Below, one piece after another: positions 50,849-60,679 of a stretch of 64,000 nt of DNA (positions are counted from its first letter, which is position 1; each line of letters begins with the position of its first letter). The stretch is from positions 20,527 through 84,526 of the forward strand of contig JAGYIO010000008.1 in assembly GCA_018402585.1 (NCBI GenBank), in the 5' to 3' direction. The notes under the pieces were generated by a model. The model was not told where the DNA came from and did no database searches. It saw nothing but the letters and a program-made list of their open reading frames with translations. Source of the stretch: Chthoniobacterales bacterium. GTDB lineage: Bacteria; Verrucomicrobiota; Verrucomicrobiia; Chthoniobacterales; JACTMZ01. A program made the position numbers and the translations under genes.

Positions 50849-51086
50849 CCCCCGGAAAAAATCGCCAAATCCCCCCCCAAGCTCAACACATCCGCTCAAG
50901 GTAAACCATTTGCCCCCAATTATTAAAGAGATACTATCTAACATTCTGCAGAATATCAGACAATAACCCACACCTGCACACTCAGGCCTCAAATTTCAAG
51001 CTTGGTGGCTGCGACACCCTATTTGCCTTCCGACCAACTCGCGTTACGGCGGACCCGCCAGGCGAGTCGACTTCTGCTTTGGGCAG

Positions 51087-51205
51087 GGGGCACGGGCGTC
51101 CCGCCCGTCACGATCCGACAACACGGCCGGGACGGCCGTGCCCCCTGGACAAACCGAGCCAAGCCGCGCTTTTATTGCGTCTTCAACGGCATGAAGACGG
51201 CTTAG
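51087..51205 (+). mobile_element. CTTAG element, 3' half only, in tandem with the next copy
   Basis: From the GGGGGCACGGGCG arm to the right end this matches the full copies almost base for base (one change in the loop), but the left half is unrelated and the right terminal repeat is degenerate (CATGAAGACGG instead of CATGGTTACGG). It ends in CTTAG, shared with the left side of the next copy. Confidence 0.75.
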
Positions 51206-51422
51206 CCGTAACCATGCAAAACATTCTGCCATTTCTGGCACGGCAACAGAGTCGCGTCTGGGCGAGAGTTGACTAACTATTTGGTGAGCGAGGTGGCACG
51301 TCGCCAAGGGGGCACGGGCGTCCCGCCCGTCACGACCCGACAACACGGCCGGGACGGCCGTGCCCCCTGGACAAACCGAACCAAGCCGCGCTTTTATTGC
51401 GTCTTCAATTGCATGGTTACGG
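51206..51422 (+). mobile_element. CTTAG element copy 1 (217 bp, intact termini)
   Basis: Begins CCGTAACCATGCAA and ends TTGCATGGTTACGG: a perfect 14-bp terminal inverted repeat. CTTAG flanks it on both sides (51201-51205 and 51423-51427). No ORF of meaningful length. The interior holds a 23-nt/23-nt inverted repeat starting GGGGGCACGG, with two mismatches. The right flank GGCCATCCACACTTTGTTCC is closely matched at 63927 downstream of an apparently unoccupied CTTAG. Confidence 0.88.
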
Positions 51423-51682
51423 CTTAGGGCCATCCACACTTTGTTCCGGTATCAGTTGATCGCTAACGCGACCTATTTGCCTAAAGGCTATTTGGTCGCC
51501 GCAGCGACCTATCTGCGCTGCGCTGCGATTCACCAAGCCTCGGTTGCGGCTTCGCCTCCAGTTCCACTCACTCAACATTAAACATTCATATTTCAAAATT
51601 TACCCGCCCCCCTTGTCACGCCAGCACGCCCCGCCCTCCAGAAACACAAGCCAGAGCAACGCGAAGGCGAGTCTCCTCAAGC

Positions 51683-51876
51683 GCAACCATGCAAAACATT
51701 CCGCCATTTCCGGCACTGCCCCAAAGGTGCGCCTGAGCGAAAGTTGACTAACGTATTGGGCGACCGAGTTGGCACGTGGCCAGAGGGGCAAGGGCAGCCT
51801 GCCCGCCGCGCCCCCGGGACAAACCGAGCCAAGCCGCGCTTTCATTGCCTCTCCCACTGCATGGATCCGGGGGCTA
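51683..51876 (+). mobile_element. CTTAG element, decayed copy
   Basis: Recognisable relative of the full copies: CAACCATGCAAAACATTCCG at the left, AAAGTTGACTAACG and GACAAACCGAGCCAAGCCGC in the middle, and TGCATGGATCCGG at the right, but with numerous substitutions and a shortened inner inverted repeat. Suggests an older insertion than the three near-identical copies. Confidence 0.65.
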
Positions 51877-55775: not shown

Positions 55776-55992
55776 CCGTAACCATGCAAAACATTCTGCC
55801 GTTTCTGGCACGGCAACAGAGTCGCGTCTGGGCGAGAGTTGACTAACTATTTGGTGAGCGAGGTGGCACGTCGCTAAGGGGGCACGGGCGTCCCGCCCGT
55901 CACGACCCGACAACACGGCCGGGACGGCCGTGCCCCCTGGACAAACCGAACCAAGCCGCGCTTTTATTGCGTCTTCAATTGCATGGTTACGG
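55776..55992 (+). mobile_element. CTTAG element copy 2, inside the IS481 element
   Basis: 217 bp, near-identical to copy 1 (for example one change in ATTCTGCCGTTT), with perfect 14-bp terminal repeats and CTTAG on both sides (55771-55775 and 55993-55997). The flanks are IS481 left end (GGTAACA) and the transposase leader (GGCGCTCTGG). Its position shows that it moved after the IS arrived. Confidence 0.88.
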
Positions 55993-60461: not shown

Positions 60462-60679
60462 CCGTAACCATGCAAAACATTCTGCCATTTCTGGCACGGC
60501 AACAGAGTCGCGTCTGGGCGAAGAGTTGACTAACTATTTGGTGAGCGAGGTGGCACGTCGCCAAGGGGGCACGGGCGTCCCGCCCGTCACGACCCGACAA
60601 CACGGCCGGGACGGCCGTGCCCCCTGGACAAACCGAACCAAGCCGCGCTTTTATTGCGTCTTCAATTGCATGGTTACGG
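60462..60679 (+). mobile_element. CTTAG element copy 3 (218 bp)
   Basis: Near-identical to copies 1 and 2, with one inserted base (GGGCGAAGAGTTG). Perfect 14-bp terminal repeats and CTTAG on both sides (60457-60461 and 60680-60684). Its right flank GCGGCTGCGGTCCGCAGCC also occurs at 62657 directly after a single CTTAG with no element. Confidence 0.9.

Follow-up and report, generated by a model that had tools for sequence, protein, structure and literature searches.

RESULTS

The window palindrome is a REPIN with relatives around a transposase gene inside leuS

The palindrome at 51308–51367 of the analysed DNA (the window, 64,000 nucleotides of a Chthoniobacterales genome, G000) is a REPIN, an inverted REP doublet, and not a switch. 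With a probability of roughly 0.86, we take it to be a non-autonomous derivative of a REP-RAYT-REP element whose transposase gene lies in frame inside leuS. The window feature itself is of a known kind; the RAYT in leuS, and the class of such genes in other core genes, appears to be new. The doublet is made up as follows.

51308–51330, plus strand: left REP arm, with foot GGGGGC (51308–51313) and perfect hairpin ACGGGCG-TCC-CGCCCGT (51314–51330)
51331–51344, no strand: doublet spacer, 14 nt; the RAYT element has its gene at the corresponding place
51345–51367, minus strand: right REP arm in inverse orientation, with hairpin ACGGCCG-GGA-CGGCCGT (51345–51361) and foot complement GCCCCC (51362–51367)

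In letters, the left arm is GGGGGC followed by ACGGGCGTCCCGCCCGT, identical to the left end of the leuS RAYT described below, and the right arm is ACGGCCGGGACGGCCGT followed by GCCCCC. Read from their own feet, the arms become ACGGGC-GTCCC-GCCCGT (left) and ACGGCC-GTCCC-GGCCGT (right). The initial annotation had described two 23-nt arms pairing with each other at 21 of 23 positions, and the arms at 51308–51330 and 51345–51367 bear this out (24 nt at 92% if the flanking A/T pair is included). It had also noted that the two mismatches suit the self-complementarity of each arm, which is correct: they are the two partners of one stem pair that reads G-C in the left arm and C-G in the right, so that a perfect hairpin is kept in each arm.

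Both arms have the anatomy of REPs (G-rich foot, 6–8 bp stem, TCC-type loop), and the doublet that of a REPIN, with two inverted, hairpin-capable REPs around a short spacer. The foot of the window arms is GGGG(G)C and not GTAG; related nested RAYTs have GTAG, GTGG, GTAA and GGGAG. We found eight matches to arm 20-mers in the window against 0.05–0.10 expected by chance, and the fold of the doublet has a z-score of −5.2 to −6.3 relative to dinucleotide shuffles. An Rfam search gave a best score of 24.8 bits, compared to a gathering score of 100, these being weak chance matches to microRNA models.

Each local hairpin, and not the long stem, is conserved

We gathered 136 arms in stretches of the window genome, choosing them for sequence similarity and not for pairing. 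The swapped stem pair was G-C in 83 of them, C-G in 52 and G-T in one, and none of the 136 had a mispaired G-G or C-C. Numerous unpaired substitutions in the arms would have spoken against the structural interpretation of the initial annotation; they were not numerous in this set. In an alignment of 13 distinct arms (12 gathered by similarity and one, GTGGAT..., from a pairing-selected list), 98.7% of the cells pair, four of the six pairs have both-sided changes and 0 of 500 shuffles were as good. This result leans in part on one divergent row, of which the G-C/C-G swap is independent. Covariation between species is much larger, and is illustrative, as that alignment was selected by pairing and the test alone would be circular.

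Over 60 doublets, 11.8 of the 12 local stem pairs were kept, whereas the long stem had 2.45 mismatches on average. The conserved unit is therefore each local hairpin, a palindrome with compensatory changes as expected for the REPs of a REPIN, and the long stem is worse conserved, being the automatic outcome of an inverted doublet of nearly identical REPs. The proposal of selection for a switchable structure thus stands in its first half, selection on hairpins (136 arms, compensated swap, 0 of 500 shuffles), and is not supported in its second, the two-state switch, because the long stem is the less conserved fold.

The arms are dispersed in the genome, and a MITE carries many of the doublets

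Over the whole genome the arm pattern matched 312 times and its reversed control 16 times. The plasmid and phage collections searched gave no match. In a 464-kb sample, picked independently of the repeat, 29 of the 48 arms lay outside MITE-like copies. Arms also occurred singly or at spacings of 14, 15, 24 and 86 nt, within a coding frame, and bounding a gene on both sides. Their location mostly outside the MITE and the varied spacing indicate that the doublet is an element of its own that was later picked up by a MITE. High copy number, together with a cognate RAYT having the same flanking REPs, is again what characterizes a REPIN. The MITE features of the window are listed below.

51206–51422, plus strand: MITE-like element with REPIN, 217 bp; TIRs CCGTAACCATGCAA (51206–51219) and TTGCATGGTTACGG (51409–51422), 14 nt each
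51201–51205, no strand: left target-site duplication CTTAG, CTNAG class
51423–51427, no strand: right target-site duplication CTTAG, CTNAG class
51085–51205, plus strand: truncated tandem MITE copy with REPIN arms and right half, 94% identical to 51307–51427
51681–51870, plus strand: degenerate shorter MITE copy (∼190 bp), in which the arm search detected no REPIN
55776–55992, plus strand: further full MITE copy with REPIN, arms near 55881 and 55915
60462–60679, plus strand: further full MITE copy with REPIN, arms near 60568 and 60602

The truncated copy had been said to retain the arms intact, and the same arms are indeed present at 51086–51108 and 51123–51145. TIRs combined with a 5-bp CTNAG duplication are what a MITE mobilized by a DDE-type transposase would have, and the element has the fixed-length target duplication and the absence of coding capacity that define the group. 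The flanking 5-mers were equal in 33 of 51 own-genome copies, nearly all being CTNAG with the middle base covarying. Nearly full copies (∼50) were restricted to this species among the 11 genomes of the genus. As to an autonomous partner, two loci in relatives (L138 and L140) were 80–83% matches to the left 90 nt only, and no transposase was recognized in them. Many copies of the exact window REPIN were probably spread by the MITE, so its copy number in G000 is no demonstration of recent RAYT activity.

Tandem MITE copies sharing one CTNAG were seen at G000:C23:355085-356006, C1:465131-465810, C32:104186 and 122709, C35:12032 and C30:155983. They look as if new MITE copies enter beside or into the ends of old ones.

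A RAYT bounded by the same arms lies in frame inside leuS

The Y1 transposase family (PF01797) has three matches in the genome. The one at G000:C1:320 kb is a RAYT bounded by window-type arms, GGGGGCACGGGCGTCCCGCCCGTCACGACC on the left and CACGGCCGAGACGGCCGTGCCCCC on the right, the right end differing from the window right arm by one loop base. It is ∼190 aa long and carries the motifs MPNHVHVLF (HUH) and YIERNP (Tyr). No in-frame ATG, GTG or TTG precedes the HUH motif and there is no stop codon; the RAYT is part of an uninterrupted LeuRS-RAYT-LeuRS open frame of 1103 aa (P0001). Family scans of this fused protein gave leuS_bact at 985 bits, Y1_Tnp over its cut-off, and REP_Tyr_transpos. The last, an NCBIfam model, scored 75.1 bits, slightly below its curated cut-off of 80, and 58.7 to 87.4 bits for nested relatives. 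Pfam and NCBIfam scans of the fused proteins found host and Y1_Tnp/RAYT families and no intein family; with no splicing domain in these scans, the insert is likely to remain part of the protein. The initial annotation had correctly read the left arm as GTGVPPV and the right arm as GRDGRAP, and GTGVPPV stands inside the LeuRS reading frame.

A profile search with the RAYT core gave PDB entry 4er8, a RAYT bound to a REP hairpin, as the best relative (E 1.1e-6); the profile was needed, as the single RAYT sequence had no match in PDB. The same entry ranked first for the predicted fold of the core (AlphaFold pLDDT 87; TM about 0.5–0.6). The gene has the attributes of a RAYT: HUH motif, catalytic Tyr, a predicted Y1 transposase fold, and a single copy of its own type flanked by REPs of its own type.

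Within LeuRS, the insert occupies a variable loop of the editing domain, and in the three genus members examined this site has a short loop. The sister species (G009) has the same leuS-RAYT arrangement, and a second leuS-level gene was found neither in its genome nor in G000. The other nine genomes of the genus have leuS without such a long frame (864–929 aa; one shorter, perhaps cut).

We also observed the following. The leuS RAYT is followed downstream by another partial left end (∼50 nt), also in frame (L032, 1820-1880), so that GTGVPPVTT occurs twice. A second, free-standing RAYT of the same genome (L033, 1300-1930; G000:C31, about 68.1–68.7 kb; L112 in G009) has its own GTGG-footed hairpins (ATCGCGCC-GTCCC-GGCGCGAT), with solo arms on C1 (128392 and 301050). 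At G000:C30:93 kb (L031, 900-2700), a Y1 transposase gene has on either side a nearly identical copy of one coding stretch, a few hundred bases long.

By analogy with characterized RAYTs, the transposase would be made as an internal LeuRS domain and would bind the foot and the single-stranded hairpin of each arm. It may then cut and join REP DNA as TnpA_REP does in vitro, thereby spreading REPINs. Such recognition of each arm as a hairpin would make the perfect local hairpin the selected unit, and would account for one-sided stem changes being matched by a change opposite. Many copies, including that of the window, probably owe their later multiplication to a DDE-type transposase that is unrelated to the RAYT and acts at the ends of the MITE.

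RAYTs are nested in frame in housekeeping genes of other genomes

Among the 150 RAYT matches listed for 213 genomes of the order, 105 were in open frames of at least 420 aa and 89 in frames of at least 700 aa, a free RAYT being about 220–250 aa long. In a phylum-wide sample, 55 of the 150 matches listed had frames of at least 420 aa. As frames shorter than ∼700 aa can arise by chance in GC-rich DNA, these counts of nested frames are upper bounds.

Reading of individual loci, together with NCBIfam and Pfam scans, identified carB, leuS, valS, alaS, thrS, recG and clpB as hosts in the order, and in addition the genes for L-threonylcarbamoyladenylate synthase, a menaquinone-biosynthesis enzyme, hsdR and MmeI/Eco57I-type enzymes. 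Public records, where some hosts were assigned from flanking sequence only, added leuS and carB in Akkermansiaceae/Verrucomicrobiales, xseA in Pontiellaceae, valS in Phycisphaerales and other Planctomycetota, and hsdR in proteobacterial MAGs. In the single-contig genome G524 a RAYT is nested in ispG, which argues against assembly artefacts.

Other arrangements were also noted. Three genomes of the genus (G005, G003 and G002; L103, L104 and L105) have RAYT-like genes with classical GTAG-footed REP doublets of wholly different stems. In one of them (L253, G005:C139) a different RAYT (clade B) with GGGGAGC-footed hairpins is in frame in alaS. At G083:C330 (L195/L178), one 717-aa frame holds two RAYT copies, apparently from a tandem duplication.

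Nested RAYTs are under purifying selection and group by host gene

Nested RAYTs evolve under purifying selection: the dN/dS of the RAYT core was 0.05–0.29 in 11 of 12 pairs (where computable). The HUH and Tyr motifs are both present in 79 of 83 nested RAYTs. Hairpins (stem of at least 7, 3-nt loop) occur at 6.19/kb beside nested RAYTs compared to 0.23/kb in the rest of the same frames, a 27-fold difference; their loops are mostly TCC/GGA, and their stems vary between species yet stay paired. The REP end of the recG-nested RAYT had 46 matches in its own genome (G177) and that of the valS-nested RAYT had 16 in G094, against 0 in four other genomes in either case. The valS-type REPs of G094 show compensated stem variants, with modest support (3/500 shuffles), sequence matching having been the main or sole means of collecting the rows.

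In a tree of 90 RAYT cores, the sequences cluster according to host gene, with 16 label changes against 54.9 after shuffling, the hosts having been assigned partly by motif. The clpB, mqnA-like, tsaC-like and free RAYTs form one group each, and leuS requires two origins. Synonymous divergence of insert and host was compared in 12 pairs: five inserts were host-like, which is the expectation of vertical descent inside the host gene, four were lower and three higher. That every nested RAYT was recently transferred is ruled out by these pairs. The strongest of the lower cases is the leuS insert of G000 and G009, with a dS of 0.12 against 0.46 in the flanks (p 2e-8), and the step in dS falls at the borders of the insert. 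The divergence pattern suggests either a later transfer into the same site or local gene conversion, the data fitting both.

Alternative explanations

We considered an RNA or DNA switch, with selection on the arms to alternate between the pair of hairpins and the long stem, for instance in regulation or termination. Either fold can form, and the mismatches are compatible with both. On isolated strands, however, the long stem is ahead by 13 kcal/mol as DNA (−29.7 against −16.6 for the two hairpins) and by 23 kcal/mol as RNA (−47.1 against −23.6), it is the worse conserved of the two folds, and no Rfam family reached threshold. A switch also leaves unexplained the single arms, the range of spacings, the arms in coding frames and those bounding a gene, and we find it highly improbable. 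The hairpins might instead be a mere internal part of a DDE-type MITE without any tie to a RAYT, given that the window copy lies within a 217-bp element with TIRs and a CTNAG duplication that is common to about 50 copies. This is improbable too, in view of the majority of arms found outside MITE-like copies in the unbiased 464-kb sample and of the ends of the leuS RAYT, of which the left equals the window arm and the right is one loop base short of identity.

The nested RAYTs could be inert passengers, RAYT and REPIN insertions alike being loop peptides that the host enzymes tolerate. The location in a variable editing-domain loop of LeuRS is what such passengers would show, and their frame would have to remain open in any case, as a stop would kill the host gene. 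Against this stand the purifying selection on RAYT amino acids, the retention of HUH and Tyr in nearly all copies, and the cognate REP populations in both species tested, so that we hold inertness to be unlikely, though deserving of some weight. That the long fused frames are assembly chimeras or annotation errors would come to mind as the majority of the genomes are MAGs. But the same junctions recur in many independent assemblies, on long contigs and in two species of the window's genus, the ispG case is in a one-contig genome, and REP ends are positioned at the junctions; we give this explanation practically no credence. The derivation of the palindrome from a REP-RAYT-REP element is accordingly the one that we retain.

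DISCUSSION

The window doublet resembles the REPIN/BIME (Bertels & Rainey 2011, PMC3116915; REP background PMC8266576) in its inverse REPs, short spacer, high copy number, hairpin arms and the cognate RAYT in the genome. It is unlike them in its GGGGGC foot in place of GTAG, in the many copies residing within a DDE-type MITE, and in arms that are stop-free in coding frames. In vitro, TnpA_REP binds a REP by its foot and single-stranded hairpin, and it cleaves and joins REP DNA (Corneloup 2021, PMC8266576). The nested genes share its HUH and Tyr core and the REP hairpins at both ends, and a RAYT (PDB 4er8) is their best relative in sequence and fold; they differ from it in their position, in frame within leuS or, in relatives, within other housekeeping genes, the leuS case having neither a start before HUH nor its own stop. 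It has been stated that there is no evidence of tnpA_REP mobility (PMC8266576), whereas the RAYT genes described here are housed in a wide range of host genes.

GTAG REPs, TIRYT elements with GGGGWSAS ends and intragenic REPs of Opitutus terrae have been reported (Di Nocera 2013, PMC3733652). Those elements and ours have in common REPs in the PVC group, GTGG/GGGG feet, REPs within coding genes and one REP set per transposase. The difference is that REP sequences inside genes were reported there, and whole transposase genes are found here. Rickettsia palindromic elements (RPE) are likewise palindromic repeats in frame in genes of functional proteins (PMC3733652). RPE have no transposase inside, unlike the present elements with their whole nested RAYT.

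Inteins with homing endonucleases also place the enzyme of a mobile element in frame in conserved housekeeping genes, in host-gene-specific lineages. As a comparison of how such systems work only, nested RAYTs are similar in housing and in their host-specific lineages, and differ in having an HUH transposase instead of a homing endonuclease and in the absence of a splicing domain from the scans.

The non-subscription literature searched contained no description of complete RAYTs nested in frame in housekeeping genes, and in-frame nesting across the phylum appears undescribed. TnpA proteins of unexpected length were set aside in an earlier survey, being taken for fusions or annotation errors (PMC6006769), and the nested class could thus have escaped notice.

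We lean, by a modest degree, towards the view that a large group of RAYTs live as in-frame, non-spliced internal domains of housekeeping enzymes. They would form lineages, each specific to a host gene, that neither a frameshift nor most deletions could remove without death of the cell. These lineages would at times pass from one species to the same site in another, and would drive the REPIN population of the species. How RAYTs persist and spread despite their single-copy, seemingly immobile state is an open question (PMC8266576), and nesting in genes indispensable to the cell offers a simple, testable answer. If true, this would mean that LeuRS, CarB, ValRS, AlaRS, RecG and ClpB of many Verrucomicrobiota carry a DNA transposase domain. 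It would also explain the GTGVPPV/GRDARAP-type peptides of PVC genomes, with nested RAYTs and REPINs as a source of the stop-free repeat peptides in PVC annotation.
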